Shown one piece after another: positions 1,737-39,873 of a stretch of DNA of 64,000 nt. The stretch comes from Candidatus Planktophila sp. (GTDB lineage: Bacteria; Actinomycetota; Actinomycetes; Nanopelagicales; Nanopelagicaceae). Each line of letters begins with the position of its first letter. Positions within the stretch are counted from its first letter, which is position 1. A program made the translations under genes and the position numbers. Location of the stretch: positions 1 through 64,000 of the forward strand of contig JAUSFN010000022.1 in assembly GCA_030649935.1 (NCBI GenBank). The letters run 5' to 3'. The notes beneath the pieces were generated by a model. It made no database searches. It was given only the letters and a program-made list of their open reading frames with translations, and had not been told where the DNA came from.

Positions 1737-1809
1737 TAAATACATTCCTCCCAGTTATGGGACCACTCGAGTACTTATGCCGACGCTGGCTATTTTAAGA
1801 CGGTTCGAG

Positions 1810-1930: not shown

Positions 1931-1952
1931 GGACTCTAACAGAGAGTCGGCG

Positions 1953-2498: not shown

Positions 2499-2505
2499 GC
2501 TCTTC

Positions 2506-3207
2506 TCATTTCGTGAAACGTGTTGGGGCCGATACAACGGTGACGGTTGCCACCGAGGCGTTAACTACTTTTCCAGTTATTGCCCGAACTGCTCCGTTAT
2601 GTGTAAAACTGCCATTCCATGTTGTTAGGAGCAGAACTGGATAAGTGCCGGGCTTTGAATACATATGAGTGATCATCGCTTTTGGAAATGGAGCGCCAGG
2701 ATTGGTAGTGGCCCACATTGCGCCGTCGCCATAGGACCAGATAAAACCTGGGCGCAAAGTGACATCGACAACTTCACCAATTATCTTCACGCGGCTTTGA
2801 AAAACCTGTGGTACATCTACCCAAAAAATCACCGGCACATTTGTCAGAGCCTCGAATTCGGGCTGGAAGGCGATACCGGCAGTTGGAACTAACTTAATCA
2901 AACGATCACTGAGATTGGCCGTTCGCGTAACTCTCTTAGGCGCAGCTGTACGCGCTCTGTGGCTGTGCTTTACGTATGGCCTCGGTGCAGGCGAATATTT
3001 GGGCGGAAACCACAACGTTGACGTGGGAGATGGTTTTGCCTTTGGTGCGCGTTGTGTAACTGTGGCACTACTACCCTTATGGGCTTCGATTATTATCTGG
3101 TTATTTTTCGTGTACACGTCAACGCAGGCTGAACCGGTGCAATCGGCAAAGGCTGGAGTAGGCGCGATCAAAAGTGAGGCAATTATTGGGATTATCAAAG
3201 CTTTCAT
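2506..3207 (-). CDS. Secreted protein with a PKD-like fold
   Basis: A 233-residue exported protein of unknown role. It begins with a Sec-type signal peptide (MKALIIPIIASLLIAPTPAFA) and probable cleavage after AFA. Two cysteines follow immediately (CTGSAC), then a Pro/Ala/Lys-rich linker at about residues 45-95. The C-terminal part contains WSYGDG and THMYSKPGTYPVLL, which match the turn and 'Y-x-x-P-G-x-Y' strand of PKD/immunoglobulin-like domains. No catalytic motif is visible. Such proteins in actinobacteria are usually cell-surface or envelope proteins. It lies just upstream of the DUF4192-like gene on the same strand. Confidence 0.6.
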   Translation of the reverse strand: MKALIIPIIASLLIAPTPAFADCTGSACVDVYTKNNQIIIEAHKGSSATVTQRAPKAKPSPTSTLWFPPKYSPAPRPYVKHSHRARTAAPKRVTRTANLSDRLIKLVPTAGIAFQPEFEALTNVPVIFWVDVPQVFQSRVKIIGEVVDVTLRPGFIWSYGDGAMWATTNPGAPFPKAMITHMYSKPGTYPVLLLTTWNGSFTHNGAVRAITGKVVNASVATVTVVSAPTRFTK

Positions 3208-3286
3208 TCCCGTGACGATAAGTGAGGGCGCCGACCGTTGCCAGCCTCACAGTACTAACTGTGGATAGTTATGCCACTCTTACATC

Positions 3287-3754
3287 ATGGCGCATAGAGA
3301 TGGAGATGGCTGGATCCAATGCCAGTGCGGTAATAAGCACTGGGGTCTAAATGGCGCGGCCGGAATCCTGATTGTGCGTGGCCATGAGATTCTTTTACAG
3401 CATCGAGTTCCGTGGGTACATAACGGTGATACCTGGGGAATCCCAGGTGGTGCGCGCGATAGTCATGAGAGCGTGATTCAGGGTGCGATTCGTGAGGCGA
3501 TTGAAGAGACCGGGATAGATCCAGCTTTCCTTACTCCCCTCCAGATACATAGTGATGAGCATGGCAACTGGCGCTACGACACCGTAATTGCAAGAGCCAC
3601 AGCTGACTTGGTTGCACATGAAGTAAATGATGAGTCACACGAAGTACGGTGGGTAGCCATTGACAGGGTTGCAGATTTAAATCTTCATCCAAGTTTTGGG
3701 AACTCCTGGCCAGCTTTACGCGAAATTCTTAATGAACTTGTCGGTTCTCGTTAA
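3287..3754 (+). CDS. NUDIX hydrolase
   Basis: A 155-residue hydrolase of nucleoside-diphosphate-linked substrates. The Nudix box spans about residues 57-79: GG-ARDSHE-SVIQGAI-REAIEETGI, including the metal-binding REAxEE core. The N-terminus (CQCGNKHWGLNGAAG) is typical of actinobacterial NUDIX proteins of the MutT/ADP-ribose class and carries a Cys-x-Cys that could bind metal. The gene stands alone, divergent from the secreted protein at 3207. Substrate preference cannot be read from the sequence. Confidence 0.85.
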   Translation: MAHRDGDGWIQCQCGNKHWGLNGAAGILIVRGHEILLQHRVPWVHNGDTWGIPGGARDSHESVIQGAIREAIEETGIDPAFLTPLQIHSDEHGNWRYDTVIARATADLVAHEVNDESHEVRWVAIDRVADLNLHPSFGNSWPALREILNELVGSR

Positions 3755-12169: not shown

Positions 12170-13429
12170 GTGGCCAAAAACTTCAAGCGACAGTTTCCGA
12201 GGGTCAATGAGTTAGCTCCGCTTCTCACTTTTAAACTTCCCTCCCTCCCAAGCCGTCACAAGCGTCTGGCCAAGGCGCTAACAATCTGGGATTTACGCCT
12301 TATCGCTAAGCGGCGCACACCCACAGCTCCATTCGATTACACCGATGGTTCAGCCGAATCTGAGATTACTCTTGAACGGGCTCGACGAGCCTTCTTAGAT
12401 CTTGAGTTTCGCCCTAATATTTTGCACGATGTAAGGGATGCTTCACTCGACTGTGAAGTTCTTGGAGAAAGATTTGCGATGCCCGTTGGAATCGCCCCCA
12501 CGGGCTTCACTCGAATGATGCACTCTGAGGGAGAAATCGCCGGTGCACGAGCGGCGCAAAAGTTCGGAATCCCTTTCACACTCTCCACCCTTGGCACAAC
12601 AACTATTGAAAATGTAGTTGCTGCCGCACCAGAAGGAGTGAACTGGTTTCAGTTGTATATGTGGAAGGACCGCGACGCTAGCATGGAGCTCGTTCGCAGG
12701 GCCCAGACGACAGGAGTCAAAAACTTAATTCTCACCGTTGACGTGCCTGTTTCAGGAGCACGATTAAGAGATACCCGAAATGGGTTAACGGTTCCGCCAT
12801 CATTGACGGCTAAAACAATTATAGATGCCATACCGAGACCAGAATGGTGGATTAACTTTCTTACTACCCCAGCAATTACTTTCGCATCTATGAAAAATTG
12901 GGAAGGAACCGTCGCTGAACTTTTGGATTTCATGTTTGATCCAACAATGACATTTGAAGATCTTTCATGGGTGCGGTCGCAGTGGAATGGTCAGTTAACA
13001 ATTAAAGGAATTCAAACTGTAGAAGATGCAAAAAAAGCGGCACAGTATGGCGCTGATGCAATTATCTTATCTAATCACGGAGGTCGGCAATTAGATCGCG
13101 CCCCTGTGCCACTTCATTTACTCGTTGATGTTAAAAAAGAATTAAAGAAAGATTTAGAGATCCATATTGACACCGGCATAATGCATGGAGCAGATATTCT
13201 GGCCGCTTTAGCACTCGGTGCCGATTTCACATATATCGGGCGTGCCTACCTTTATGGTTTGATGGCAGGTGGCCAAGAAGGTGTTGAGCGCGCATTGTCA
13301 ATTTTGCAGACACAAATGTTCAGAAATATGAAGTTGTTAGGCGTTAATACACTAGAGGAACTTGAACCAAAGCATGTCCGCATACTGCCAACTCTTGCCG
13401 GACTCGGCTCACTATCTGGGGGAAAATAG
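12170..13429 (+). CDS. lldD: FMN-dependent L-lactate dehydrogenase (alpha-hydroxy-acid oxidase family)
   Basis: Probably oxidises L-lactate to pyruvate and passes electrons to the quinone pool. The 419 residues have the FMN-barrel landmarks: MPVGIAPTGFTRMMH, the substrate-binding LTVDVPVSGARLRDTRNG, KGIQTVEDA with the catalytic lysine, SNHGGRQLDRAP with the active-site His-Gly-Gly-Arg, and HIDTGIMHGADILAALALGA near the end. That last variant is typical of actinobacterial lactate dehydrogenases. Translation starts with GTG at 12170. A related 2-hydroxy acid such as glycolate remains possible. The GntR regulator 26 bases downstream is the likely local control. Confidence 0.85.
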   Translation: MAKNFKRQFPRVNELAPLLTFKLPSLPSRHKRLAKALTIWDLRLIAKRRTPTAPFDYTDGSAESEITLERARRAFLDLEFRPNILHDVRDASLDCEVLGERFAMPVGIAPTGFTRMMHSEGEIAGARAAQKFGIPFTLSTLGTTTIENVVAAAPEGVNWFQLYMWKDRDASMELVRRAQTTGVKNLILTVDVPVSGARLRDTRNGLTVPPSLTAKTIIDAIPRPEWWINFLTTPAITFASMKNWEGTVAELLDFMFDPTMTFEDLSWVRSQWNGQLTIKGIQTVEDAKKAAQYGADAIILSNHGGRQLDRAPVPLHLLVDVKKELKKDLEIHIDTGIMHGADILAALALGADFTYIGRAYLYGLMAGGQEGVERALSILQTQMFRNMKLLGVNTLEELEPKHVRILPTLAGLGSLSGGK

Positions 13430-13455
13430 ATGAGAATCGCGCGAATAGGTGCAGG

Positions 13456-14208
13456 TTGAACCCGATTAAGCCCGGCGTTGCTAAGTCCTCTGCGCGTACC
13501 TCGGTCCTCTCCGATGAGACCTACGGCAAGATTAAAGAGATGATTGTGAAGTATGAAATCTCTCCGGGCTCCAGAGTCAATATCGATGCACTCTCACTTC
13601 AACTTAAAACCTCTCAGACTCCAATACGAGAGGCACTAGCCCGCTTAGAATCCGATGGACTCATCAAAAAAGAGCCACTTAAGGGTTATAGCGCTACTAA
13701 TCTCTTAACTCTTGAAGAGTTCCACGACTTATTTCAATTTCGACTCCTCATCGAACCGTGGGCAGCCGAACAAGCGGCAAAAAGGATTACTACTGAGGGA
13801 AAAAGAATTCTTAACTTAGAGATGAAAAGTACAATGAAAACTTTGAAGCAGAAGAGTGTCGATGAATTTAAGAGTTTAACTGAACATGATGCTCGCTTTC
13901 ATAAACTGATTTCACAACTATCTGGCAGCAAATCCGTTGAATCAGCCTTTGAGAGAACACACTGCCACTTACATTTATTTCGACTCTATATGGCCCATAG
14001 GCTTCACTTGATCGAAAATAATTCAAGAGCCAAATTCGTAGAAGGTCTGTTTGAACAGTACTACCAGAATGGTTCAGGACAACTGGCAATTATTGAACAT
14101 AGTGCTATTTCGAATGCAATTATCGACGGAGATTCCAAAGCTGCACGAGCTAGTATGCACTCACATATTCAATCTTCATTGAAACGCTTTTCAACTTCGG
14201 TAGAGTAG
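13456..14208 (+). CDS. GntR-family (FadR/FCD type) transcriptional regulator
   Basis: A 250-residue DNA-binding regulator. The N-terminal winged helix (about residues 18-85) includes IKEMIVKYEISPGSRVN and the GntR signature SQTPIREALARLESDGLIKKEPLKG. The rest is an all-helical FCD ligand domain with the metal-binding pattern D...H (EHDARFHKLI) and later histidines. The start is a TTG at 13456 without a strong ribosome site, so the exact N-terminus is uncertain. Lying directly behind lldD and beside the hydroxyacid dehydrogenase/prp operon, it probably senses a hydroxyacid or carboxylate. Confidence 0.85.
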   Translation: MNPIKPGVAKSSARTSVLSDETYGKIKEMIVKYEISPGSRVNIDALSLQLKTSQTPIREALARLESDGLIKKEPLKGYSATNLLTLEEFHDLFQFRLLIEPWAAEQAAKRITTEGKRILNLEMKSTMKTLKQKSVDEFKSLTEHDARFHKLISQLSGSKSVESAFERTHCHLHLFRLYMAHRLHLIENNSRAKFVEGLFEQYYQNGSGQLAIIEHSAISNAIIDGDSKAARASMHSHIQSSLKRFSTSVE

Positions 14209-14227
14209 GTAAATGCATTTAATCGCT

Positions 14228-15139
14228 CTAGCGCATCGGGCCTGCGACAATATTTGCTAATGGCTGACCAGTTGCAAAGCGTTTAAGCTGACTCTCAATA
14301 AGAGTTCGTACGCGCGGATTAAACGCACTTGAGTCTCCACCTACATGTGGAGTGATAATTACATTTGGCGCACGCCATAAACGATGGCCTTTTGGTAATG
14401 GCTCTGGATCCGTAACATCTAAACCGGCGGTGATATGCCCACGATTCAAAGCGTCTACCAAAGCATCTGTATCGACTACAGGACCTCGAGCCATATTTAT
14501 TAAGGTAGCACCCGGCTTCATCGCATCAATCCTCGATCGATTCATCAAGTGACGTGATTGCTCAGTTAATGGAAGTATGAGAATGACTACATCTAGGGTT
14601 GGCAGTAACTCATCAAAGTCGGCCATTGTCTTACTTGCGTTATTTCCGCTGCGATTAAAACCGATGACCTCGACATTAAAGAGCTCTAGCTGCCTGGCAA
14701 TCAATGAACCGATGCTTCCCGTGCCGACAATTCCCACGCGCGAATCTGCTAAAGCGCTACGTCGCTCGTGAATCCAAAGACCCTTAACTTGGTTTGCCAT
14801 GAAAGTTGCAAATCCACGCCTTGCGCTTATCGCTAATCCAATTGCCAACTCTGCTGTGGATGCATCATGGACACCCTTTGCGTTACATAATGTAACGCCG
14901 GGTGGAAGAATCTCAAGGAGATCATCTACCCCGGCATTTGGACTCTGAATAACTTGAAGAGAAGACATCATTGAAATAGCTTCTAGGGCTTGAGCACCTG
15001 ACATATAAGGGGGAATGTAAAATTGAATTGATGCGAGAATCTCTGGCTCTGGAAACTCTCCCCGTATCGGAAAGGCTTCCAATGATTCAGGAATCGCCAA
15101 TCCAGAGAATTCGCACCAGATTATTGGTGCACTCATATC
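14228..15139 (-). CDS. D-2-hydroxyacid dehydrogenase (NAD(P)-dependent)
   Basis: Reduces or oxidises a 2-hydroxy acid, for example glyoxylate/hydroxypyruvate. The 303 residues carry the Rossmann motif GIVGTGSIGSLIARQL, and the catalytic residues of the family: Arg in NMARGPVVDTDAL, Glu in DVTDPEPLPKGH, and His in ITPHVGG. The ATG at 15139 lies nine bases behind GGAG; a GTG at 15151 is less likely. It is the last gene in the run prpB-prpC-prpD-glycerate kinase, 24 bases after the kinase, and hydroxypyruvate reduction to glycerate would feed that kinase directly. Exact substrate is inference. Confidence 0.85.
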   Translation of the reverse strand, partial: DMSAPIIWCEFSGLAIPESLEAFPIRGEFPEPEILASIQFYIPPYMSGAQALEAISMMSSLQVIQSPNAGVDDLLEILPPGVTLCNAKGVHDASTAELAIGLAISARRGFATFMANQVKGLWIHERRSALADSRVGIVGTGSIGSLIARQLELFNVEVIGFNRSGNNASKTMADFDELLPTLDVVILILPLTEQSRHLMNRSRIDAMKPGATLINMARGPVVDTDALVDALNRGHITAGLDVTDPEPLPKGHRLWRAPNVIITPHVGGDSSAFNPRVRTLIESQLKRFATGQPLANIVAGPMR

Positions 15140-29550: not shown

Positions 29551-29689
29551 AGGGATCTGCTTCGGCTCAACATTTGGCTGATACTACTATGACGGCCAAG
29601 GCTCTTAGATACCTCACATTAAGGCTTTTGGGCTTGATGATCTGCCTATTGAACTAGCAATGTTGGTATTAGTTGTTATCATTTCTCAC

Positions 29690-29956
29690 ATGACTACAGA
29701 TGGCGAGCAAGCCCTAGAGGTACTTCGTACTGTCTGGCAAGGCCAACCAAGTTTGGCTCCAGATCTTGAACTTGATGAAGATTGCAATCCAAACAAATCA
29801 TGCAAGAACATGAAGGAAGTAACATTCGACGGCTTTGCAGAGCCTGGCCAGGATTTAGGCACTGCATGGCGTGAAAAACTTGCTCGCGAGGGAAAGCTCA
29901 ATACCTCCGGCGGCTCCATTCGTGATCTTATTCTTAGCTCGATCCAACCTAAATAA
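29690..29956 (+). CDS. Small acidic protein of unknown function
   Basis: Eighty-eight residues (MTTDGEQALEVLRTV...), or 98 if the ATG at 29660 is used. It has no membrane segment. The middle is acidic and has two cysteines (DEDCNPNKSCKNM), and the C-terminal half contains WREKLAREGKLNTSGGSIRDLIL. I do not recognise the family. It precedes the MoxR/VWA pair by 29 bases on the same strand and may be the first gene of that run. Codon use is similar to its neighbours. Confidence 0.6.
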   Translation: MTTDGEQALEVLRTVWQGQPSLAPDLELDEDCNPNKSCKNMKEVTFDGFAEPGQDLGTAWREKLAREGKLNTSGGSIRDLILSSIQPK

Positions 29957-29985: not shown

Positions 29986-30873
29986 ATGAGTACATCAAAT
30001 GACCCGCAATCTATTTCAGTAGATTCCTTAATCACCGACCTAAAATCTTTGGGTTACATTGCCGATCGCGGACTTGCAACTTCGATTTTCATTTCAATGA
30101 AACTTGGTAAGCCGATTTTACTTGAGGGCGAAGTTGGAGTTGGAAAGACTGAGTTAGCAAAAACTTTAGCCGCACTCTATGGCCGCCAATTAATTAGGTT
30201 GCAATGCTATGAAGGCATCGATACGAATCACGCACTCTATGAGTGGGACTACGCACGTCAAATGTTACAAATTCGTGCAATGAATCAAGTTGGAACGACG
30301 CAGACCTCGGTTCAAACCCTCTTTGGCCCTGAGTTTTTAATTGAGCGACCTCTGTTGCAGGCAATCCGCGCAGGAGATCAATGTGTTCTATTAATCGATG
30401 AGATCGATCGCGCCGATGATGAGTTCGAAGCCTTTTTACTTGAGCTGCTCTCGGATTTTCAAATAACTATCCCTGAGATTGGAACCGTGAGTGCTGCCAC
30501 TCGCCCGATTATTATTCTGACATCAAATCGCACACGCGAACTCCACGATGCGCTCAAACGCCGCTGCCTGTATAGCTGGATTGGCTTTCCAACTCCTGAG
30601 AGAGAGATTGAAATCGTTCGTTCACGCCTGCCTCAGATTGGGGAGCGCCTAGCGCAAAAAGTTGTGACTGCAGTTAATCGCCTGCGCGATATGGAGCTAG
30701 AGAAGGTTCCTGGTGTCGCCGAAACTATCGATTGGGTTCAATCCCTCAACGCCATTGGCAGCCATGATTTAGATGAAGATGGTGCCTCCAATACGTTAGG
30801 GGCAGTTATTAAGTGCCGTGATGACATGAATTACGTCAGGCAAAACTTGAAAGAGATTGTCACTGGTGTCTAA
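29986..30873 (+). CDS. coxD: MoxR-type AAA+ ATPase (CoxD-like)
   Basis: A 295-residue chaperone-like ATPase. Walker A is [14 protein letters not shown] near residue 39, Walker B is VLLIDEIDRADDEFEAF, and the sensor region is IILTSNRTRELHDALKRRC with the arginine finger. In CO dehydrogenase clusters the CoxD ATPase works with the VWA protein CoxE to mature the Mo-Cu active site. The immediate VWA partner and the CODH genes 2 kb away support CoxD, but the gene could be a general MoxR protein. Confidence 0.82.
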   Translation: MSTSNDPQSISVDSLITDLKSLGYIADRGLATSIFISMKLGKPILLEGEVGVGKTELAKTLAALYGRQLIRLQCYEGIDTNHALYEWDYARQMLQIRAMNQVGTTQTSVQTLFGPEFLIERPLLQAIRAGDQCVLLIDEIDRADDEFEAFLLELLSDFQITIPEIGTVSAATRPIIILTSNRTRELHDALKRRCLYSWIGFPTPEREIEIVRSRLPQIGERLAQKVVTAVNRLRDMELEKVPGVAETIDWVQSLNAIGSHDLDEDGASNTLGAVIKCRDDMNYVRQNLKEIVTGV

Positions 30874-31993
30874 GAGCGCCTTCGATGAGTTATTCGTCGA
30901 ATTTGGCGCATTTCTGCGCGATGCAGGTCTGGGGGTTGGCACCGATGATGTCATAACCTTTTGTCAAGGAACTGCCGAACTAAATCCGACCGATGTTATG
31001 GATATCTATTGGAGTGGTCGCACAACACTCGTTCGGCGCAGAGATCAAATTCCCACCTATAACGCAAAGTTTCGCGAGTTCTTCTTAGATATTAAGGATG
31101 ACGAGCCAGATCAACGAAAAGTTAAGATTAAATCATCATCAAATACCGCCGCCACTCTTGAAATCCCCTCCGTTGAACCTGGAGCTCCAGGCAATGGCGA
31201 AGAGGAGACAAAGATGGGCCATATGGCATCGGCCGCTGATACATGGAGGAACAAGGCCTTTGCTCAGTGCACACCTACTGAACTCAATACTTTAAGGAAG
31301 TTAATTTCAACTTTGCGAGTATCACCACCTGTGCGACGAACGCGACGGATTAGGCCAAAACTTCGTGGTAGCAAAATGCATATGCGCAAAATGGTGCGAG
31401 AGACGCTTCGTACTTTTGGGGATCCTAATACATTGTTCTTTACGCAACGTAAAATAAAATTGCGCCCAATAGTTTTTATTCTAGATGTCTCTGGCTCAAT
31501 GGCTGACTACTCACGCAACCTGCTGCAGTTTGCATATTCGGTCCGACGCGCAAATGCAAAAGTTGAGGTCTTCTGTTTTGGTTCACGGCTTACTCGCATC
31601 ACTAAATCTTTAAGTAAGCGCACCCCTGATGAGGCGATGGAGCTAGCCGGTAATGAGGTTCTAGATTGGGATGGCGGAACTCGGATCGGCGACAGTTTAA
31701 AAACCTATGTTAAAGATTGGGGCCGAACACGAATTGGTCGCGGAGCCATTGTGATTATCTGCTCCGATGGATTAGATCGTGGATACCCAGAGGTTTTAGC
31801 TAAGGCGATGGAGGACCTATCTCGCCTTTCTTATCGAATTCTCTGGATGAATCCGCATAAGGGAGATGCTCACAACTTTGAGCCCAATACCTTGGGAATG
31901 ATCGTGGCCGATCCTTTTATCGATGAGGTTTTTTCAGGTCATAACTTAAAAAGCTTAGAGGAATTCAGCCATAGACTCGTCCGACTACGTTAG
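30866..31993 (+). CDS. coxE: VWA-domain protein (CoxE-like)
   Basis: Partner of the MoxR/CoxD ATPase. The 375 residues begin with a helical domain and end with a von Willebrand A domain (about 200-370) bearing the MIDAS motif FILDVSGSMADYS and later WDGGTRIGDSL and IICSDGLDRG. The middle section (GEEETKMGHMASAADTWRNKAF) is the usual low-conservation linker. The GTG at 30866 overlaps the coxD stop by 8 bases. Known MoxR-VWA pairs insert metals or remodel enzymes; here the target is most likely the CO dehydrogenase encoded on the opposite strand. Confidence 0.82.
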   Translation: MSKSAFDELFVEFGAFLRDAGLGVGTDDVITFCQGTAELNPTDVMDIYWSGRTTLVRRRDQIPTYNAKFREFFLDIKDDEPDQRKVKIKSSSNTAATLEIPSVEPGAPGNGEEETKMGHMASAADTWRNKAFAQCTPTELNTLRKLISTLRVSPPVRRTRRIRPKLRGSKMHMRKMVRETLRTFGDPNTLFFTQRKIKLRPIVFILDVSGSMADYSRNLLQFAYSVRRANAKVEVFCFGSRLTRITKSLSKRTPDEAMELAGNEVLDWDGGTRIGDSLKTYVKDWGRTRIGRGAIVIICSDGLDRGYPEVLAKAMEDLSRLSYRILWMNPHKGDAHNFEPNTLGMIVADPFIDEVFSGHNLKSLEEFSHRLVRLR

Positions 31994-32001
31994 GAACTCC
32001 A

Positions 32002-32289
32002 ATGAAATACTCTGTCTCCATTGCCGCAGAAGGTGATCGTGTTATCGCTCTTGAAGAGGTTGTCGAGTTAGCCGATGCAGTTGCACCATTTAGCGGCGTT
32101 GCATCTGGTGCTGCAACGCAATCATATGGAGTGCAGATTTTAGTTGAGGCCGAGAATTTAGATTCGGCAATCGATATGGCCATGCAGATTTTTTCTAAAG
32201 CTGTAGTAACTGCAAAACTGCCCGTGTGGCCGATCACCCGTGCAGAGGCGATGAATGAAGATGATGATTGGGATGACTTCGACGAATGA
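32002..32289 (+). CDS. Conserved-looking 95-residue protein of unknown function in the cox accessory run
   Basis: A soluble 95-residue protein (MKYSVSIAAEGDRVIALEEV...) with a predicted beta-alpha-beta pattern. It has a strand YGVQILVEAENLDSAIDMAMQIF and a very acidic tail (NEDDDWDDFDE). The ferredoxin-like strand-helix pattern is reminiscent of small ACT/antibiotic-monooxygenase folds, but no family is recognised. It follows coxE by 8 bases and overlaps the next gene by 4 (ATGA), so it is part of the coxD-coxE transcript. The acidic tail might contact the partner ATPase; this is only a guess. Confidence 0.65.
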   Translation: MKYSVSIAAEGDRVIALEEVVELADAVAPFSGVASGAATQSYGVQILVEAENLDSAIDMAMQIFSKAVVTAKLPVWPITRAEAMNEDDDWDDFDE

Positions 32290-32726
32290 TTCGCCTTGGC
32301 TCACTTGCAGGTTATCCATTTGAAGGTCCGCGCGCCCTTGCGGGTTGGACTGCTACAAAGATTCCAGCTGTCTATGCCATTATGTGTCGCAACGAGCCAG
32401 ATGCTAAACCACAGGAGTTCTCTGTAATTTACGTAGGTCAAAGCGATGATTTAACTCAAGAGGGATTTCCGCTCAAACATCCACATACACATACATGGGT
32501 TGCACGAGCCGGCAATAAATACAATCTGCATATCTGCTGGTATGAAATTCCAGGTGGTCTGCCAACTCACCGCGAACAAATAAGCCGTGAATTAATGGCA
32601 ATTTATCAACCAAGCTGTAATACTGAAAAATATGATCAAGCCTGGAAAGATGAATGGATCGGTCAGTATTCCAATGCTTTCACCGACCCATTAACTACCG
32701 AACGCGATCCAAACTCTTCTAATTAA
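32286..32726 (+). CDS. GIY-YIG-like domain protein
   Basis: A 146-residue protein with the GIY-YIG nuclease layout. The first strand AVYAIMC stands in for GIY, FSVIYVGQSDDL is the YIG strand, then a region with basic residues (HTHTWVARAG), and ISRELMAIYQPSCN carries the catalytic-type glutamate and the terminal Pro/Asn. The first motif reads VYA, so the tyrosine is kept while the first glycine is not. It starts inside the stop of the preceding gene (ATGA). A nuclease fold at the end of a CO dehydrogenase accessory run is unexpected; nuclease activity is not proven. Confidence 0.7.
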   Translation: MIRLGSLAGYPFEGPRALAGWTATKIPAVYAIMCRNEPDAKPQEFSVIYVGQSDDLTQEGFPLKHPHTHTWVARAGNKYNLHICWYEIPGGLPTHREQISRELMAIYQPSCNTEKYDQAWKDEWIGQYSNAFTDPLTTERDPNSSN

Positions 32727-32728
32727 AG

Positions 32729-33088
32729 CTACTTACCTACAAAACCTACGCCATCTAACATTCTAGAACGACGTGTGCGACTTGCTGGGAAATTAGGTTC
32801 ACGCTCTTCATGTGGATCTGGCTGATATGTTGCACCGACAACAATTGCCTCGGCCATTCCGTAGAGAAGTGGCAACGCGCCGGCGACGATTCCGCCAGTT
32901 ACGTTGATGCGCTCTAAACCTGGTTCGATCAGATCGGCATCGGCCTTAATCTTCCAGACCAAATCAGCGGCCTCTTCAAGGTTTCCTGCGACCTGGGCTA
33001 GCTGCCTACCAACTATAAAGAGGTAGATCGCAAGGCTTGCGATTAGTGCAACGATATCGATAACGCTAAATAGCTGAAGTGATGTCAT
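32729..33088 (-). CDS. Small membrane protein 5 of the cox operon
   Basis: A 119-residue protein with one N-terminal membrane span (about residues 8-27, FSVIDIVALIASLAIYLFIV). A helical region (LAQVAGNLEEAADLVWKIKADADLIEPGLERI) follows, then a second weakly hydrophobic stretch, and a basic tail (SRTRRSRMLDG). It is the last of five consecutive tiny genes between coxG and the convergent coxD run, and overlaps its upstream neighbour by 4 bases. I do not recognise a family. It could be a membrane anchor or scaffold for CO dehydrogenase. Confidence 0.7.
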   Translation of the reverse strand: MTSLQLFSVIDIVALIASLAIYLFIVGRQLAQVAGNLEEAADLVWKIKADADLIEPGLERINVTGGIVAGALPLLYGMAEAIVVGATYQPDPHEEREPNFPASRTRRSRMLDGVGFVGK

Positions 33089-33360
33089 GAGCGCACCTTC
33101 TCTAGTACTCGACCTAAGAACAGGTGGTGCTCAAGACCCTCAGCCAATACTGCATCTACACCAACGGCAGTCTCATCGATGAGCTTAGTATGTGAAGTAT
33201 TGGCCTGCGCCGCTGTCAGCGTTGCTTTAATCAACGCAACACGCTTATTAATAACGTTAACGAGAATAACTAAAATCGTAAGAAGTGCAGCAACCGCAAC
33301 TACTACAACGGCGCCAAGAATATTGGCAATGAACCACAGTGTATGTACTTGATCGCTCAT
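33085..33360 (-). CDS. Small membrane protein 4 of the cox operon
   Basis: Ninety-one residues. One long hydrophobic span (about residues 9-34, FIANILGAVVVVAVAALLTILVILV) is followed by an amphipathic helical region (VALIKATLTAAQANTSHTKLIDETAVGVDAVLAEGLEHHLFLGRVLEKV). The plan (short N-terminus, one span, about 50 soluble residues) matches the four neighbours, although identity is low. It overlaps the next gene by 4 bases. No known family was recognised. Confidence 0.7.
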   Translation of the reverse strand: MSDQVHTLWFIANILGAVVVVAVAALLTILVILVNVINKRVALIKATLTAAQANTSHTKLIDETAVGVDAVLAEGLEHHLFLGRVLEKVRS

Positions 33361-33362
33361 GA

Positions 33363-33617
33363 TCAGCCCCCCAACTTCTTTCTGCCACGATTTAGACCGG
33401 CAACGATCGCGGTGGCATATGCGATCGTTGTTTTAAGATCTTTCAGGGCGGCAGTATTGACAACTGCGCCTTCTAGGCCAGCGTTGATTCGCGCAGCCTG
33501 TCCGCCAATTTTGTGCGCTAGTAGCAAGATTGGAACTACAAGGGCTACAACAACTAGCACCACTACGAGTGCGATGATGTAACCCAATAGCCAACCGCTA
33601 TGTGAGGTGAAATCCAT
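33363..33617 (-). CDS. Small membrane protein 3 of the cox operon
   Basis: Eighty-four residues. The N-terminal span (about residues 10-34, LLGYIIALVVVLVVVALVVPILLLA) is followed by HKIGGQAARINAGLEGAVVNTAALKDLKTTIAYATAIVAG, a helix with regularly spaced small residues, and a basic end (NRGRKKLGG). It starts 13 bases after the preceding gene's stop, with GGAAGAGGAA as ribosome site. It has the same architecture as the other four proteins of this set. Function unknown. Confidence 0.7.
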   Translation of the reverse strand: MDFTSHSGWLLGYIIALVVVLVVVALVVPILLLAHKIGGQAARINAGLEGAVVNTAALKDLKTTIAYATAIVAGLNRGRKKLGG

Positions 33618-33630
33618 TTCCTCTTCCTCC

Positions 33631-33858
33631 CTAAATAGATTCTGCGAAGTCGCGGACGGGCTTCAAACTTGCATTCACTGATGTAACCACTGGCTTGACT
33701 GTGGCGGTCTTTGCAACGATGACTTGCACGCCGCCGTCTAAAGCATCAAGAGTCTTAGCGACCGCGCTCAAGTGAATAATCACTCGCGTCAGACCAAGGG
33801 CTGCCGCTGCGATGATGAGTGTTGCGAGAATTAGCGTTACTACGGCTACTGTTGGCAT
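33631..33858 (-). CDS. Small membrane protein 2 of the cox operon
   Basis: Seventy-five residues from the ATG at 33858 (MPTVAVVTLILATLIIAAAALG), which follows AAGGGA. An earlier in-frame start would overlap the preceding gene by 53 bases. One membrane span (residues 3-26) is followed by LSAVAKTLDALDGGVQVIVAKTATVKPVVTSVNASLKPV. The LDALDGGV segment is nearly repeated as VDALDGGVAL in the neighbour at 33866, the clearest sign that the set is paralogous. Function unknown. Confidence 0.68.
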   Translation of the reverse strand: MPTVAVVTLILATLIIAAAALGLTRVIIHLSAVAKTLDALDGGVQVIVAKTATVKPVVTSVNASLKPVRDFAESI

Positions 33859-33865
33859 TTTTCCC

Positions 33866-34120
33866 TTACCCGAGCAACTTAGAGACAGGACCGGCGTAGC
33901 GAACTGCGCCATTAGCAACTTCTTTAATCACATAATCAGTCTTTGTCAGCAGTGCTGGCGTTGTGTTGAGTTCACCTATTAAGGCAACTCCCCCATCGAG
34001 TGCGTCAACTGCTGCACCACGGATTCGCTCAAGCGGCGCTAGAACTAGATTCAATAGCGTAACGAGAACTGGAACGATGACAATTAATAGAATTACATTA
34101 CCTATTGCCCATAAGCTCAT
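33866..34120 (-). CDS. Small membrane protein 1 of the cox operon
   Basis: Eighty-four residues, first of five small genes after coxG (29-base gap). It has an N-terminal span (about residues 4-27, AIGNVILLIVIVPVLVTLLNLVL), then PLERIRGAAVDALDGGVALIGELNTTPALLTKTDYVIKEVANG. The soluble part is likely a helical hairpin. It shares the ALDGGV segment with small membrane protein 2. The orientation (short N-terminus outside or inside) cannot be decided. Function unknown; proximity to coxG suggests membrane attachment of CO dehydrogenase. Confidence 0.7.
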   Translation of the reverse strand: MSLWAIGNVILLIVIVPVLVTLLNLVLAPLERIRGAAVDALDGGVALIGELNTTPALLTKTDYVIKEVANGAVRYAGPVSKLLG

Positions 34121-34149: not shown

Positions 34150-34737
34150 TTACCGACGTGCCGTTGCCTGATATGGCAAGAAGAAACGGCTGAAAATGCG
34201 CTTTGCTCCGCGCGATACAACAATTAACCCGATTGCAACTGCGCTGGCAGATTGTGGACCCCCAACTGAGTTTGGATCTTGGCCCAGTGAAATCGCCTTC
34301 ATGCGATTCTTCATGGTTGTGGCGGTTTGATTAACTAGAACCGCAGTTATGTCACTTATTAGGCCACGACCAAACTGCGCCGCAGTTCCAGAGAGCTGTA
34401 AGTCGAGTGAGACATTTACGCGCGTTCCTTGTGGCGATGCTGTCAGTGTTGCGATTAAGACCGCTACTGCCTCTCCGCGACCTTTGCGATCGGCACCTGA
34501 TGCATCAAGGGTGATGATTTTCCTAGCATTATCACGGCTTCTAACCTTGGCAGCGCCATCAAACTCTAACTTCACAGGACCGGCTGAGATAATTACGCCA
34601 CCTTTGTAGTGGTCGGTTGCAACTTTTTCAGTGAGGTCAGCACCTGGGATGCATGCCGCAATTTGAGGCACATCATCGAAGAACTTCCACACGGCATCGA
34701 TCGGCTGATCGACATCGATTGCTTGTGATATTAGCAT
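34150..34737 (-). CDS. coxG: CoxG-like SRPBCC-domain protein
   Basis: A 195-residue lipid/quinone-binding-type START fold (about residues 1-145). It has the family opening AIDVDQPIDAVWKFFDDVPQIAACIPGA, the middle YKGGVIISAGPVKLEFDG and a long C-terminal helix (AAQFGRGLISDITAVLVNQTATTMK). The end (residues 165-190) is moderately hydrophobic and basic, as in CoxG proteins that attach CO dehydrogenase to the membrane. CoxG is needed for respiration of CO in other bacteria. The gene sits between the xdhC-YHS gene and five tiny membrane proteins. Confidence 0.88.
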   Translation of the reverse strand: MLISQAIDVDQPIDAVWKFFDDVPQIAACIPGADLTEKVATDHYKGGVIISAGPVKLEFDGAAKVRSRDNARKIITLDASGADRKGRGEAVAVLIATLTASPQGTRVNVSLDLQLSGTAAQFGRGLISDITAVLVNQTATTMKNRMKAISLGQDPNSVGGPQSASAVAIGLIVVSRGAKRIFSRFFLPYQATARR

Positions 34738-34770: not shown

Positions 34771-35727
34771 CTACCGTGCAACTTTGTTAAGAAATGAATG
34801 TGGATCTTTTTCAAAAGAAGTACGGCATCCGCTGGCGCAGAAGTAATATGTTGTATCTTCAAAAACAAATGGGTTATTTGACTTAGTTGGTGCAACGCTC
34901 ATGCCACAGACCAGATCGATAACATCTTCAATCATCGTGAGCGCAATCTTTGAGTCAACTGGCTTTGAGAGCTCACCGCTAGCGCGAAGTTGCACGAGCT
35001 CGGCCAGAATGGAAACTGCCATCTCTCGGTGAGTGGTGCTCCCTAAATCTAAACCGACAGGGACTTTAATCTTTGCTAATTTCTGCTCAGATACTCCGCG
35101 ATCAACTAAATACTCAAGGACTACGGCCCCGCGCTTGCTCGATGCAACCAGACCGATAAAGCGAGGGTTATTCTCCAATGCAATCTCAAGTGCATCTTCA
35201 TCGCCATGGCCTTGCGTTGCGATAACAACTACTGACGATGGTGTAACCATTGAGGCCGTTAGATCATCGCCGTCTATGATCTCAACAGTCCAATCTAAAT
35301 CCCGCGCAAGATTTGACAGTGTCAGTGCCATTGGTGAGCGCCCGACGATTAAAAGTTGCGGAGAAACCTTTACTGGCTCAATGAAAATCTGAAGTGCGCC
35401 ATCGCTTTGGCAAGAGATAGGAATCGTTACAACTCCCTCAGGAATATGCATTCCGACGAAATCAGCATCTTGTCCTAACCAAATTAACTTTGCTTCACCA
35501 TTATGCAGAACTGCCTTTGCTTCACGGATTAAAACTGGTTCAGCACATGCTCCGCCAATCCATCCATAAATTACGCCATCTGCAGTAACAATCGCCCGTG
35601 AACCACGTTGGCCAGATGATGGACCTTGGCGCCAAACAACAGTTGCCATTACAAAGCTCTCTCCAGCTTTGGTTAGTTCAACTGCGCGCTCTAAGACGCC
35701 GATTCCTTCAACTGCCCCGTTGCTCAT
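34771..35727 (-). CDS. XdhC/CoxF-family maturation protein fused to a YHS domain
   Basis: A 318-residue protein with three parts. The XdhC N-domain (residues 1-75) has VVWRQGPSSGQRGSRAIV and GWIGGACAEPVL. The Rossmann-like XdhC C-domain (about 115-250) has LLIVGRSPMALTLS and IGLVASSKRGAVVL. The C-terminal YHS domain (270-318) has DLVCGMSV...YYFCASGCRTSFEKDP with cysteines suited to metal binding. XdhC proteins load sulfurated molybdopterin. The YHS fusion could deliver copper or another metal for the Mo-Cu site, which is inference. It is 3 bases behind coxL. Confidence 0.85.
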   Translation of the reverse strand: MSNGAVEGIGVLERAVELTKAGESFVMATVVWRQGPSSGQRGSRAIVTADGVIYGWIGGACAEPVLIREAKAVLHNGEAKLIWLGQDADFVGMHIPEGVVTIPISCQSDGALQIFIEPVKVSPQLLIVGRSPMALTLSNLARDLDWTVEIIDGDDLTASMVTPSSVVVIATQGHGDEDALEIALENNPRFIGLVASSKRGAVVLEYLVDRGVSEQKLAKIKVPVGLDLGSTTHREMAVSILAELVQLRASGELSKPVDSKIALTMIEDVIDLVCGMSVAPTKSNNPFVFEDTTYYFCASGCRTSFEKDPHSFLNKVAR

Positions 35728-35730: not shown

Positions 35731-38112
35731 TTAGTTACCAACTCGCACTGGTGGCATTCCATAGACATCGTTGCCAGTTGTAAGAGCTTCATAGACACGG
35801 TTAGGCATCAATGGCATATCGATATTACGAACGCCCTTGTCCTTAAGTGCATCCATAACGGCGTTAACAAATGCCGCAGGCCCACCCACAGTTGCGCACT
35901 CACCGACCCCTTTTGCACCAATTGGATGGTGAGGACATGGTGTGACAACTTCGTATAACTCAAAGCCAGGAGTCTCCCAAGCAGTTGGAAGAAGGAAGTC
36001 CATGTAGTTAGCGCCGATGCAGTTACCCTCTTCGTCATAGGTGATGTACTGCATGTTCGCCATCGCATATGCCTCGGTGAGTCCACCCATGATCTGTCCT
36101 TCGACAATCATTGGATTGATACGTACACCGCAGTCATCGACTGCAACAAACTGTAAAACATCCCAAACGCCGGTCTCAGGATCGATTTCAACTTTGGCGA
36201 TATAACAAGCAAAGGGCCAGGTTAGATTTGGTGGATCGTAGTAGGCGTTGTTCTCTAAGCCTGGCTCCATTCCATCTGGCATATTGCTATAGGCAGCCAT
36301 TGCACACTCTTGAATTGTCACGCCGCGATCTTGATTGCTGCGTACATAGAAGCGACCTAACTCCCACTCAATATCCTCTTCAGAGACTTCAAGTAAGTGT
36401 GCTGCAATCTTTCTGGCCTTAGCGCGAATCTTTCGTGCAACCATTGCAACTGCAGCTCCTGCAACTGGAGTACTTCGTGAGGCGTAGGTTCCCATTCCAA
36501 ATGGAGCGGTATCTGTATCGCCCTCTTCTACAACGATATCTTCTGCCGGGATGCCGAGTTCGTGAGTGACGATCTGTGCCCACGTCGTCTCATGTCCTTG
36601 TCCCTGAGACTTAGCACCTGTGCGCAGTAGAGCTTTACCGCTCATGTGAACACGAAGCTCTGCAGAGTCAAACATCTTGATTCCCAGAATGTCGTACTCA
36701 CGGCTATTACCAGCACCGAGTGGTTCAGTCATCGTTGAAATACCTATACCTAGCAAGCGTCCGCGCGATGCTGCCTCTGCCTTTTCTTTAGCAAAGTTCT
36801 TATATCCAATCGCCTCTAAACCAATATCTAGACACTTTCCATACTGTCCTGAGTCGGTAAGGAAGCCAAAGGCGGTGCGGTGTGGAAACTCGTCATCTTT
36901 AACAAAGTTAATACGACGAAACTCTGCTTGATCCATTCCTAGATCATCGGCTGCGGCCTGCACCATTCGCTCTTGGAAAAACATCGCTTCGGTAACTCGG
37001 AATGAGCAACGGTATGCAACTCCACCCGGTGCTTTGTTGGTGTAGTAACCCGTTGACATCATATGAGCTACAGGAATGTCATAGCAGGCAAAAGCTGAGT
37101 GCATGAGGCCAATTTTGAACTTACTTGGTTGCGCATCGGAGAAGAAAGCACCGTGATCTGAGACTGTGTTCATGCGAACACCAAGGATGCGACCATCTTT
37201 GCGAAGAGCGAGCTCTCCCTTGAGATAAACGTCGCGACCAAAACCAGTTGAGATTAAGTTTCCAGTCTTATCTTCGATCCACTTCACTGGCTTTTCAGTC
37301 AAGATCGAAGCCAAAATCGAGATTACATACCCTGGATAAATTGGAACCTTATTACCAAAGCCACCACCAATATCAGGTGAGACGATACGAATCTGGTGCT
37401 CTGGAAGCTCTGCAACTAGCGCAACTGCTGCACGCACAATATGTGGTGCCTGCGAAGTCATATAGACCGTTAACTTGCCAGTTGCGCGATCGTAATCTGC
37501 AATAGATCCGCAGCACTCAAGTGGTGATGGGTGTGTACGTGGGTAGTGCAGTTCAATCTTTGAAATCTTATCGGCTGCGGCAAATGCTTTATCGGTACCG
37601 GCCTTATCGCCAATCTCCCAATCAAATACCTTATTTCCTGGTTGATTTTCCTTATCGTCGCGAATCAATACAGATGCTGGATCTGCGGCTTGCAGTGGAT
37701 TAACGATTGCTGGAAGAATTTCATACTCAACAACAATCTTTGCACAGGCATCCTTTGCAATATAGGGATCATCGGCGATAACGGCGCAGACCTCTTGGCC
37801 TTGAAAGCGCACTTTGTCAGTTGCTAACACTGCCTGTGTGTCATACGAGAGCGTTGGCATCCATGCCAAGTTACGCGCAGCCATCATTTCACCAGTTAGA
37901 ACTAGACGCACACCTGGTGTATCCCATGCTTTGGAAACATCGATTGATTTGATTCGCGCGTGTGCAACTGGGCTGCGCAAAATCTCCATATGGAGCATGT
38001 CAGGCAAGACGATGTCATCGACATAGTTGCCCTTACCACGAATAAAACGATTATCTTCTACGCGCCGACGGCTTGCACCCATTCCGCCGATCTTTATCTC
38101 ATCTAATGGCAT
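35731..38112 (-). CDS. coxL: Aerobic carbon monoxide dehydrogenase, large (Mo-Cu) subunit, form I
   Basis: Catalytic subunit that oxidises CO to CO2 at a Mo-Cu centre. At 793 residues it has normal length. The diagnostic loop reads AYRCSFR at residues 366-372 (36997-37017). The Cys-Ser-Phe form marks true form I CODH rather than the form II AYRGAGR enzymes of uncertain substrate. Other landmarks are GMGASRRRVEDNRFIRG at the start, PDIGGGFGNKVP, GAKSQGQGHETTWAQI, and near the end GAKGVGECATVGGPAAF with the active-site glutamate. It lies in the order coxM-coxS-coxL. The organism probably uses CO as a supplementary energy source. Confidence 0.96.
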   Translation of the reverse strand: MPLDEIKIGGMGASRRRVEDNRFIRGKGNYVDDIVLPDMLHMEILRSPVAHARIKSIDVSKAWDTPGVRLVLTGEMMAARNLAWMPTLSYDTQAVLATDKVRFQGQEVCAVIADDPYIAKDACAKIVVEYEILPAIVNPLQAADPASVLIRDDKENQPGNKVFDWEIGDKAGTDKAFAAADKISKIELHYPRTHPSPLECCGSIADYDRATGKLTVYMTSQAPHIVRAAVALVAELPEHQIRIVSPDIGGGFGNKVPIYPGYVISILASILTEKPVKWIEDKTGNLISTGFGRDVYLKGELALRKDGRILGVRMNTVSDHGAFFSDAQPSKFKIGLMHSAFACYDIPVAHMMSTGYYTNKAPGGVAYRCSFRVTEAMFFQERMVQAAADDLGMDQAEFRRINFVKDDEFPHRTAFGFLTDSGQYGKCLDIGLEAIGYKNFAKEKAEAASRGRLLGIGISTMTEPLGAGNSREYDILGIKMFDSAELRVHMSGKALLRTGAKSQGQGHETTWAQIVTHELGIPAEDIVVEEGDTDTAPFGMGTYASRSTPVAGAAVAMVARKIRAKARKIAAHLLEVSEEDIEWELGRFYVRSNQDRGVTIQECAMAAYSNMPDGMEPGLENNAYYDPPNLTWPFACYIAKVEIDPETGVWDVLQFVAVDDCGVRINPMIVEGQIMGGLTEAYAMANMQYITYDEEGNCIGANYMDFLLPTAWETPGFELYEVVTPCPHHPIGAKGVGECATVGGPAAFVNAVMDALKDKGVRNIDMPLMPNRVYEALTTGNDVYGMPPVRVGN

Positions 38113-38129: not shown

Positions 38130-38666
38130 CTACTTAGATTCCGCGCGCATTTTTTCAGCAGCCCAAAGGATTGCCTTGACGATATTTTGGTACCCAGTGC
38201 AACGGCACAGGTTTCCAGAGATTGCCCAACGAATCTCATCCTCAGTTGGATTCAGATTCCTTTCAAGAAGTGCCTTTGCCGCCATCATCATTCCTGGAGT
38301 ACAAAAACCACATTGCAAACCATGCTTTTCTTTAAAGCCCTCTTGAATCGGATGGAGCTCACTTGCTGAGGCTAAACTTTCAACGGTTTCGACTTTATGA
38401 CCATCGGCCTGGACTGCAAACATTGTGCAGCTCTTAATTGGTCGGCCATCAAATAAGACTGTGCATGCACCACAGTTGGTCGTATCACAACCGGTGTGTG
38501 TGCCTGTTAACTTCAAACCTTGACGAATCAAGTGAGCTAAGAGAAGTCGTGGCTCAACATCGACGGTGCGTGCTTGACCATTGACGTTGATTGTTACTCG
38601 ACGAACCGGAACATCACCAGCAGGTGGCGTGCTGATTTCTTCGTAAAGGCTAGTCATGTGGCTCAC
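38130..38666 (-). CDS. coxS: Aerobic carbon monoxide dehydrogenase, small (2Fe-2S) subunit
   Basis: Carries two [2Fe-2S] clusters between the Mo centre and FAD. The N-terminal plant-type cluster has [15 protein letters not shown], and the C-terminal cluster has [16 protein letters not shown] and [13 protein letters not shown]. The 178 residues include a short N-terminal extension before [11 protein letters not shown]. The first codon is GTG at 38666, overlapping the coxM TGA by 4 bases; an ATG three codons later (38657) is an alternative. Middle gene of coxMSL. Confidence 0.95.
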
Positions 38667-39538
38667 GCTGCTTTCTTTGTTGAGTTAGCGATACTGGTCA
38701 AAATGCGAGTTACAAATGTACGAATTATCTGACGCTTGTAGTCAGATGAGCCGCGGTGATCACTGCGAGGTTCGGCAACGGCTGCAACTGCTGCTGCCAC
38801 CGTTGCGATATTTGCCTCAGTCAATGCCTGGCCAACAAGTGAAGATGCGGCATCTGTTGCATCGATCGTCTTGCCGCCCACACCTGCCATTGCAATTCCT
38901 GCACGGACAACTTTGCCGCCAGTTATTTCAAGGGCAACGGCAACTGATGCCGTAGCAAAATCGCCTACACGGCGCTCTAATTTGAGGTACCCACCGCGAG
39001 CTTGGCCCGCTGGCGCTGGAATAACCGCCTCAATCGCAATCTCATTAAACTCCAGCGCAGTTTGGAAAGGCCCGAGAACAAAGTCTTTCATCGCAATTTC
39101 GCGCTTGCCCTTTGGGCCTTGCACAACAACACGACCGCCGAGAGCGATCATTACCGCTGCCCAATCACCTTGTGGATCTGCGTGACAGAGTGAGCCAACA
39201 AATGTTCCGCGGGTGCGCACAATTGGATCAGCAACAAGTGGAGCTGCTGCGGCAATTGTTGGCTGCCCTTTTGCAATCACATCTGAGTGCTCTAAATCTT
39301 CGTGTCGACAGAGCGCACCAATCCGCAGAGTTCCATCTGAGTCAAAGCGATGATAGTTAAGATTTGGAATATTATTGATATCTACGACCGTTCCAGGAAA
39401 TGCAAAACGCAGTTTCATCATTGGAACCAAACTTTGTCCGCCAGCTAATACTTTAGTTTCGCCAGCTCCACTATCTAAGAGTGCAATCGCATCTGCAAGA
39501 GTTTTTGGGGACTCATAATTAAAACGAGAGGGATACAT
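38663..39538 (-). CDS. coxM: Aerobic carbon monoxide dehydrogenase, medium (FAD) subunit
   Basis: Holds FAD and passes electrons toward the quinone pool. The 291 residues have the FAD-binding motif AGGQSLVPMMKLR near residue 32 and TRGTFVGSLCHADPQGDW near residue 109, the VAO-type pattern of CoxM. A C-terminal CO-dehydrogenase flavoprotein domain follows (about 170-285). It overlaps coxS by four bases. Upstream by 9 bases is a small unknown gene that may be the first of the operon. Confidence 0.95.
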   Translation of the reverse strand: MYPSRFNYESPKTLADAIALLDSGAGETKVLAGGQSLVPMMKLRFAFPGTVVDINNIPNLNYHRFDSDGTLRIGALCRHEDLEHSDVIAKGQPTIAAAAPLVADPIVRTRGTFVGSLCHADPQGDWAAVMIALGGRVVVQGPKGKREIAMKDFVLGPFQTALEFNEIAIEAVIPAPAGQARGGYLKLERRVGDFATASVAVALEITGGKVVRAGIAMAGVGGKTIDATDAASSLVGQALTEANIATVAAAVAAVAEPRSDHRGSSDYKRQIIRTFVTRILTSIANSTKKAA

Positions 39539-39547: not shown

Positions 39548-39784
39548 CTACTTCTTTTTTGTTACATCGCGAACAGCGACTGGCATTGAATCGGCATCTG
39601 GATCTGGACGTGGCTCTTGATGTGCAGGCCAAGGGCCTTGCACTGGTTGACTTGCAATTTTTAAATACTCAGTAATCTGAGGCCACGCCCAAATAGTTGG
39701 GCTACTTCCCTCTTTTGGTGAATTCTCGATGAGTGCAAAGAAACGTGGATTACCCCGCTCGTGCCCAGTAGATTCAATTGCCAT
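39548..39784 (-). CDS. Small hydrophilic protein at the head of the cox operon
   Basis: Seventy-eight residues (MAIESTGHERGNPRFFALIEN...), with no membrane span and no cysteine. It is rich in proline in the second half (GPWPAHQEPRPDPDADSMP) and ends in Lys-Lys-Lys. The ATG at 39784 follows AGAGAG; an ATG at 39805 would add seven residues. It lies 9 bases before coxM on the same strand. I do not recognise a family. Placement suggests a structural or regulatory accessory to CO dehydrogenase. Confidence 0.6.
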   Translation of the reverse strand: MAIESTGHERGNPRFFALIENSPKEGSSPTIWAWPQITEYLKIASQPVQGPWPAHQEPRPDPDADSMPVAVRDVTKKK

Positions 39785-39873
39785 GTGATATCTCTCTCTT
39801 GACATTTAAGGTCCACGTAAAATAACACTAAAACTTTGCTTGTACTAGATTAACTTCCATTTAATATTTGGGC

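Follow-up and report, generated by a model that had tools for sequence, protein, structure and literature searches.

We analysed a 64,000-nucleotide stretch of a Candidatus Planktophila sp. genome (contig JAUSFN010000022.1, positions 1 to 64,000; hereafter the window) that carries an operon for a form I Mo-Cu carbon monoxide dehydrogenase (CODH). Five small open reading frames, here named P1 to P5, lie on its minus strand between coxG and a convergent coxDE pair. An earlier note on this DNA had pointed to five consecutive small genes with an N-terminal membrane span at this place, and we confirm them: P1 (33866..34120, 84 amino acids), P2 (33631..33858, 75 amino acids counted from its ATG), P3 (33363..33617, 84 amino acids), P4 (33085..33360, 91 amino acids), and P5 (32729..33088, 119 amino acids). 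The genes are closely packed, with intergenic gaps of 29 bases for coxG-P1, 7 for P1-P2, 13 for P2-P3, 2 for P3-P4, and -4 for P4-P5.

The minus-strand operon reads s85-coxM-coxS-coxL-xdhC/YHS-coxG-P1-P2-P3-P4-P5. It begins with s85 (39548..39805), a small gene upstream of coxM that is without a Pfam match and recurs in this cox type, followed by coxM (38663..39538; PF00941, PF03450) for the flavin adenine dinucleotide subunit, coxS (38130..38666; PF01799, PF00111) for the [2Fe-2S] subunit, and coxL (35731..38112) for the large subunit. Next come a gene for an XdhC/CoxI-family maturation protein with a C-terminal YHS domain (34771..35727) and coxG (34150..34737; PF06240). Running toward the quintet from the opposite side, on the plus strand, are genes for a coxD-type AAA ATPase (29986..30873) and a coxE-type VWA protein (30857..31993; PF05762), then two unknown genes, s95 (32002..32289) and s146 (32286..32726), that also recur in this cox type. 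The window CoxL belongs to form I, with 1085 bits against TIGR02416 (cut-off 991) and the motif AYRCSFR.

A known family for the quintet was rejected, since the five window proteins match nothing above the curated cut-offs of Pfam and NCBIfam, and seven members from the hydrogenase loci described below match nothing above cut-off in Pfam. Every P protein has a single strongly hydrophobic N-terminal stretch, with the caveat that a second one exceeds the cut-off in 32 of 85 P5 and 4 of 83 P2 sequences. Lys and Arg are nearly absent before the span (means 0.00-0.13) and number 1.8-4.3 on average in the 20 residues after it, a charge distribution which predicts an N-out/C-in orientation. The part after the span is mostly amphipathic and helical; hydrophobicity there repeats with a best period of 3.4-3.9 residues, most clearly in P5 and least so in P4. 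Alignments of 13 rows for each protein (of 17 available, near-copies being omitted) have a mean column identity of 61-81%. In the window-type cox loci, the P4 tail EGLxHHLFLGRVLxKVR is invariant except at the x positions across 39 rows, namely 38 of the 39 listed matches and the window; the corresponding P5 alignment holds 42 of the 51 listed matches and the window. This conservation, together with the invariant P4 motif, indicates that P1-P5 are real genes. AlphaFold2 models of the single chains show one helix in P4 (residues 3-90; mean predicted local distance difference test score, pLDDT, 79.5) and two helices in P5 (residues 3-65 and 68-86; mean pLDDT 75.4). Beyond the end of the span, at about residue 34, the P4 helix would reach approximately 80 Angstrom if straight, at 1.5 Angstrom per residue. 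The P5 matches in a sequence search of the PDB are designed coiled coils.

The quintet accompanies one type of CODH. Of the 151 family-sample genomes, 9 have CoxL (at 88-100% identity), and a strong P5 match is found in exactly those 9; a tenth match, in G050, is weak (E 0.009) and falls inside a 779-amino-acid frame. The co-occurrence gives a Fisher p of about 1e-14 without G050 and 1e-13 with it. No CoxL match was obtained in 19 further members of the genus in this sample, and the locus is therefore patchy. In the class sample (296 genomes), CoxL matches occur in 51, and their identities show two peaks, 83-100% in 12 genomes and 53-58% at best in the other 39. For this sample and the phylum sample below, the separate tallies of P4 and of CoxL or hydrogenase were treated as the same genomes, sample sizes and handles being in agreement. 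Twelve class genomes have a strong P4 match (E below 1e-40), namely 11 of the 12 with high-identity CoxL plus G376, where coxL is cut at the contig end; in the twelfth, G208, the contig ends in coxL. All of P1-P5 are present in order in 16 of the 18 high-identity loci examined (8 from the family, 10 from the class; L050-L065), while the contigs of the other two end too early, and G215 has the quintet on a different contig, following a coxL fragment (L172). At E 0.01, no P4 match occurs in any of the 39 class genomes with only 53-58% CoxL, and 20 class-sample loci of that type (L068-L087, some cut by contig ends) gave no match to any P profile.

A broader scan with the P4 alignment against a collection of 84,980 species returned 146 relatives. 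In the best 80 of these 146, cox genes adjoin the quintet without exception, and the complete P1-P5 order is found in 76, the other four missing an end gene where the contig stops. Labels were assigned to CoxL in 70 of these 80 loci (AYRCSFR read in 60, the other 10 cut or without the motif) and to coxD in 68. The loci include Nanopelagicales, Micromonosporaceae, Planosporangium flavigriseum strain TBRC 198 (L113), Acidimicrobiales, Ilumatobacteraceae, and Nitriliruptoraceae. Records labelled Rubrivirga, Acidobacteria, Poseidoniales, Streptomyces griseus, and Bifidobacterium look like mislabelled or misbinned contigs of metagenome-assembled genomes (MAGs).

The idea that the quintet is common to all form I cox clusters was rejected, given the absence of P4 from the class genomes with only 53-58% CoxL and of all five from the cox control loci. 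The controls comprised 30 loci with 5,747 stop-to-stop frames: 20 cox loci of the class sample, 6 cox loci whose CoxL is 63-64% identical, and two named cox and two named hydrogenase regions. None of them matches a P1-P5 profile at E 0.01. In line with the earlier note, P1-P5 are not standard genes of form I cox operons. The other form I clusters compared, among them those of Afipia carboxidovorans pHCG3 (L213), L068-L087, L200, L201, and L208-L211, share coxM-S-L, and that of Afipia also has the MoxR ATPase, VWA, XdhC, and coxG genes. Their CoxL proteins are about 53-64% identical to that of the window, both of those tested (L074, with 1389 bits, and L201) pass TIGR02416, and by profile they hold no P1-P5, several being cut by contig ends. 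As a separate observation, the CoxL motif reads AYACSFR in all 20 of L068-L087 and AYRCSFR in the quintet-bearing lineages; the stricter motif (A/S)YRCS(F/L)R given in an excerpt of PMC13240472 would miss the AYACSFR lineage, although L074 passes TIGR02416.

The quintet is not confined to cox loci either. In the phylum sample (296 genomes), P4 matches at E 0.01 occur in 31 genomes, the window's own included, and the sites of the 30 others were searched with profiles of all five proteins. Together with one locus of the class sample (L169, in G374), 19 phylum-sample loci have [NiFe]-hydrogenase neighbours, 20 in all. The other class-sample leftovers are a 3-kb contig without an enzyme (G308, L170) and a probable false match without any P profile match (G338, L171). 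Hydrogenase subunits were identified by cysteine motifs and, in those tested, by family matches; HypC, HypD, and the maturation protease were confirmed in three loci, the other Hyp names being assigned by eye only. In L184, L190, L191, and L193 the gene order is hydS-P3-P4-P5-P1-P2-hydL, with the quintet between the small and large subunit genes, and L192 starts in the same way and is cut before the large subunit gene. The hidden Markov model (HMM) missed the gene in the P5 position of this layout, which profile comparison identified as P5 (99.2% probability). In L180, L185, and L187-L189, P3-P4-P5 and P1-P2 occur in one or two blocks near hydrogenase genes. No coxG match was found in any of the 20 loci (the search covered the loci and not the rest of these genomes), and 18 of them are without a coxD/E match, coxD/E-like genes being present in L198 and a coxE fragment in L188. 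A quintet specific to cox was rejected on the strength of these orthologues. The co-occurrence with form I coxL raised by the earlier note holds for the present CODH lineage, with which the set is kept, and not as an exclusive one, other CoxL lineages being mostly without the set. That note had also named the same cassette in genomes without cox genes as an outcome contrary to its proposal; such genomes do exist, but the partner enzyme there is again a dehydrogenase that oxidises a gas, and a coupling role is strengthened by this.

The hydS/hydL layout recalls a published one. Five short predicted membrane proteins, HylTM1-5, are described between the small and large subunit genes of group 1l hydrogenases in an excerpt of PMC9561532, which credits them to its reference 24. 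L184, L190, L191, and L193 have the same five-protein layout and were assigned to group 1l by it, so that our comparison is with loci of 1l layout and not with the published HylTM sequences. By order only, P3, P4, P5, P1, and P2 would be HylTM1-like, HylTM2-like, HylTM3-like, HylTM4-like (fourth in the hydrogenase order), and HylTM5-like (fifth), respectively. The window quintet likewise comprises five short span proteins encoded together, homologous to the five of the hydS/hydL-layout loci, but it differs in order (P1-P2-P3-P4-P5 as against P3-P4-P5-P1-P2) and in partner, a Mo-Cu CODH instead of a hydrogenase. The primary HylTM report is reportedly that of Ortiz et al. 2021 in PNAS. A search of the window's genome gave no hydrogenase at E 1e-60 or better, and since this copy sits in a cox operon of such a genome, we regard it as a homologous set and not as a hydrogenase component. 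A link between HylTM and cox was not found in the limited literature collection searched, in which the name HylTM turns up in PMC9561532 alone and which does not include the primary HylTM report. Five short membrane proteins in group 1l clusters are thus already known; as far as seen, what is new is the quintet in CODH operons, its orthology across two unrelated enzymes, and a near-complete association with them.

This association was quantified in the 296 phylum-sample genomes with thresholds of E 0.01 for P4, 1e-200 for CoxL, and 1e-60 for the hydrogenase large subunit; the identity cut-offs (52% and 69%) were set after seeing gaps in the distributions. P4 is present in 15 of 15 genomes whose hydrogenase is at least 52% identical to that of L191 and in 10 of 10 with CoxL of at least 69% identity. 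It is found in 5 of 44 genomes with only a more distant hydrogenase or CoxL (G434, G510, G609, G657, G660) and in 1 of 227 with neither enzyme at these thresholds (G612). For 25 of 25 versus 6 of 271, the Fisher p is about 5e-31. Inspection of the six gave the following neighbourhoods: in G609 and G657, P3-P4-P5-P1-P2 lies directly upstream of coxM (CoxL 55-56%); in G510, P3, P4, P1, and P2 lie about 5 kb upstream of coxM; in G434 and G612, the set adjoins a gene for a hydrogenase small subunit where the contig ends; and in G660 it adjoins such a gene on a contig of 9.9 kb in which no large subunit gene was detected. Compared with the intact hydrogenase types that accompany the quintet, the enzymes of C. 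necator H16, cited as group 1h in an excerpt of PMC9561532, and of a Streptomyces plasmid show 39-44% identity, and their regions contain no P match. Genomes with only such 39-44% hydrogenases are P4-negative, with the exception of G503, G510, G533, and G660, which are explained by cox or another set. The quintet genes are thus kept as a set and tied to two unrelated types of gas-oxidising enzyme.

Each of the five proteins has its own counterpart on the hydrogenase side. Of 74 hydrogenase-locus frames scoring at least 25 bits, 73 prefer one cox profile by at least 7 bits. When cox profiles were compared with hydrogenase-only profiles, the namesake probabilities for P1 to P5 were 99.5, 98.6, 99.5, 99.0, and 98.4, above every other pairing, and adding the cox loci L196, L197, and L199 to the hydrogenase side gave 99.6, 98.8, 99.5, 99.1, and 98.5. 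At the level of sequence, these comparisons support one-to-one orthology between P1-P5 and the five short membrane proteins of 1l-type hydrogenase loci; most likely, then, the five had already diverged before the set came to be shared. Within the quintet, P1, P3, and P4 are related to one another, as are P2 and P5, each above 20 shuffled controls, and similarity across the two groups is weaker (P2-P3, 87.5% with the hydrogenase-side profiles, which in this test also contained L196, L197, and L199). The closest paralogues are P3-P4 (with P1) and P2-P5. A duplication relating P1 to P2, proposed earlier from the segment ALDGGV, was rejected: the segment is present in both, but their cox profiles score 13.6 against a column-shuffled mean of 10.3 and maximum of 14.6, no better than shuffled ones, and the similarity is marginal in the hydrogenase-side profiles (20.9 against a shuffled maximum of 19.8).

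A concatenated tree was built from 33 rows, comprising the window, 8 of the 80 scan loci, two cox loci of approximately 70% type, L196, L197, L199, and the hydrogenase sets, and leaving out L170, L174, L176, L177, L181, L186, L195, and L202 as well as low-scoring or long frames. The window-type and 70%-type cox sets split from all others (100/100), and L196, L197, and L199 form a branch of their own, L196 and L197 sharing the hydrogenase-like gene order. A single clade of all cox quintets is not rejected by the approximately unbiased test (p-AU 0.291), and long branches meet in the tree.

Taken together, these data make it fairly probable that P1-P5 form a five-subunit modular membrane adaptor, orthologous to the five of 1l-type hydrogenases, which here serves a form I Mo-Cu CODH. 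The five helices would bundle, rooted in the membrane with their N-termini outside and C-termini inside, and the resulting stalk or bundle would hold cytoplasmic CoxMSL against the membrane. The last Fe-S cluster of the enzyme might then meet menaquinone via the adaptor, CoxG adding to quinone access in cox loci, and CO electrons could thereby enter respiration. A membrane platform that docks CODH or CoxG to the respiratory chain had been suggested from the window alone. That reading is partly supported, being right in spirit and too narrow: a conserved, co-inherited membrane set makes a platform plausible, but docking of CoxG cannot be its general function, because the 20 hydrogenase loci contain no coxG match. 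A more specific and tentative version would have one copy of each helix in a hetero-pentameric stalk, a plug-in quinone adaptor on unrelated cores that joined form I CODH more than once, and which, in some loci, the longer proteins described below would extend on the opposite side of the membrane.

Several observations weigh against such an adaptor. The AlphaFold2 models are single-chain and of moderate confidence, with block means of 62-73 from P4 residue 41 onward. Long helices are a common default prediction for such sequences, and a PDB sequence search with the P4 and P5 profiles found no solved relative for either. P2 is weak in the 1l-type loci, with up to 24 bits and E values of 0.005-0.006 in L184 and L191. 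The orthology figures are partly circular, because the hydrogenase rows were labelled by the best cox HMM; independent checks come from the consistent gene order and the P5 profile result in the 1l-type loci. In G533, G572, and G660, a P3-P4-P5 triple occurs without a gas dehydrogenase in the stretch examined (L174, L176, L177). The quintet is also not needed for coupling in general, because most other CoxL lineages and the sampled 1h-like hydrogenases do without it.

Two known systems help to place the adaptor reading. Group 1m clusters, as described in an excerpt of PMC9561532, contain two single-span proteins of 82-92 amino acids, a HybD peptidase, an iron-sulfur assembly protein, and a TPR protein. 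The 1m-like locus L185 has P1 (92 amino acids), P2 (84 amino acids), a maturation protease (PF01750), a NifU/NfuA-like protein, and a TPR protein, and it also holds P3-P5 on the other side of hydSL; both L180 and L185 were placed in group 1m by layout only. The second system is Huc, the group 2a hydrogenase of M. smegmatis, in which the amphipathic helical stalk HucM is proposed to carry menaquinone, said to be moved over 94 Angstrom (excerpts of PMC10017518). The likeness lies in amphipathic helices that link a soluble gas dehydrogenase to the membrane, at approximately 80 Angstrom for P4 versus 94 Angstrom for Huc, whereas HucM is one protein, a tetramer peripheral at the membrane, and the quintet is five proteins with true spans. 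The P4 and P5 profiles, the only two searched, gave no match to the HucM chain at E 1.

An alternative is that the quintet is only a passive anchor or clustering device, with quinone chemistry taking place elsewhere and, in cox loci, being left to CoxG. The coxG gene stands immediately before P1 in cox loci of the window type, CoxG is called a menaquinone-binding membrane protein in an excerpt of PMC13240472, and none of the P proteins matches a family whose cofactor is known. However, a plain anchor would hardly require five non-interchangeable subunits, and in the hydrogenase loci, with a coxG match in 0 of 20, something else must supply quinone access; we consider this explanation unlikely. 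Somewhat less likely still is an assembly platform, in which the quintet would act with the MoxR-VWA pair (CoxD/CoxE) in enzyme maturation or membrane delivery and not in electron transfer. The coxD gene beside the quintet in 68 of the best 80 scan loci and, in hydrogenase loci, the coxD/E-like genes of L198 and the coxE fragment of L188 would agree with it, whereas 18 of 20 hydrogenase loci are without coxD/E matches and other cox clusters carry coxD/E without the quintet. Moreover, the maturation of the Mo-Cu and [NiFe] cofactors is unrelated.

It is very improbable that the quintet is an ion-translocating, energy-conserving module attached to different dehydrogenases. A group of five distinct spans that stays intact and serves more than one enzyme may recall modular respiratory complexes, but the spans contain few charged residues by eye, there is one clear span per protein, and no match to known pump subunits was found in Pfam, NCBIfam, or, for P4 and P5, the PDB. 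Lineage hitch-hiking of small genes without a role with the enzyme, which would fit the conserved order of the entire window-type cox locus and not of the quintet alone, is already contradicted in this sample and has next to no probability, as the same five genes stand beside hydrogenases and, in another order, beside another cox lineage (L196, L197), and G572 retains all five although they are split between L176 and L202, where P1 and P2 lie near cox genes.

The passage of electrons from trace gases through soluble CODH and high-affinity hydrogenases to the respiratory chain is of large biogeochemical weight, and a five-part set found with two enzyme families that are unrelated suggests that both solve it physically in a common way. 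The adaptor reading gives a testable role to HylTM1-5, a published and unexplained hydrogenase gene set. In addition, the quintet sets apart one form I CODH lineage, present in several groups of Actinomycetota, for which Planosporangium flavigriseum TBRC 198 is a named carrier strain.

Longer single-span proteins (about 200-270 amino acids) with Ser/Thr/Asn-rich helical repeats and a C-terminal Cys adjoin the quintet in both cox and hydrogenase loci. They form a trio at L173:2755-4868, L175:4355-6283, and L187:11828-13937, and two were found at L188:5759-7875 and L179:11735-13281. These longer proteins are weakly similar to P2-P5, and their basic N-termini suggest, by eye, the opposite topology. 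One trio member searched in the window's genome gave no match, in a search without a positive control. Around the window quintet, the small unknown genes s95, s85, and s98 (29660-29956) recur with this cox type, none above a Pfam cut-off, and s146 is GIY-YIG-like by eye only (VYAI...IYVGQS...), with no Pfam match at E 1. In hydrogenase locus L198, the coxE/coxD-like VWA and AAA ATPase genes (1212-3318) lie less than 2 kb from a frame for a [NiFe]-hydrogenase large subunit, near a P set. Finally, L188 encodes a protein resembling the hydrogenase large subunit (13035-14747) beside P3-P4-P5. Its nickel-ligand cysteines appear to have been substituted (RVCGWSG, DPGMTEATH), whereas they are retained in an 80% relative from L179; the L188 protein may be a dead paralogue, or the change may reflect a MAG error.

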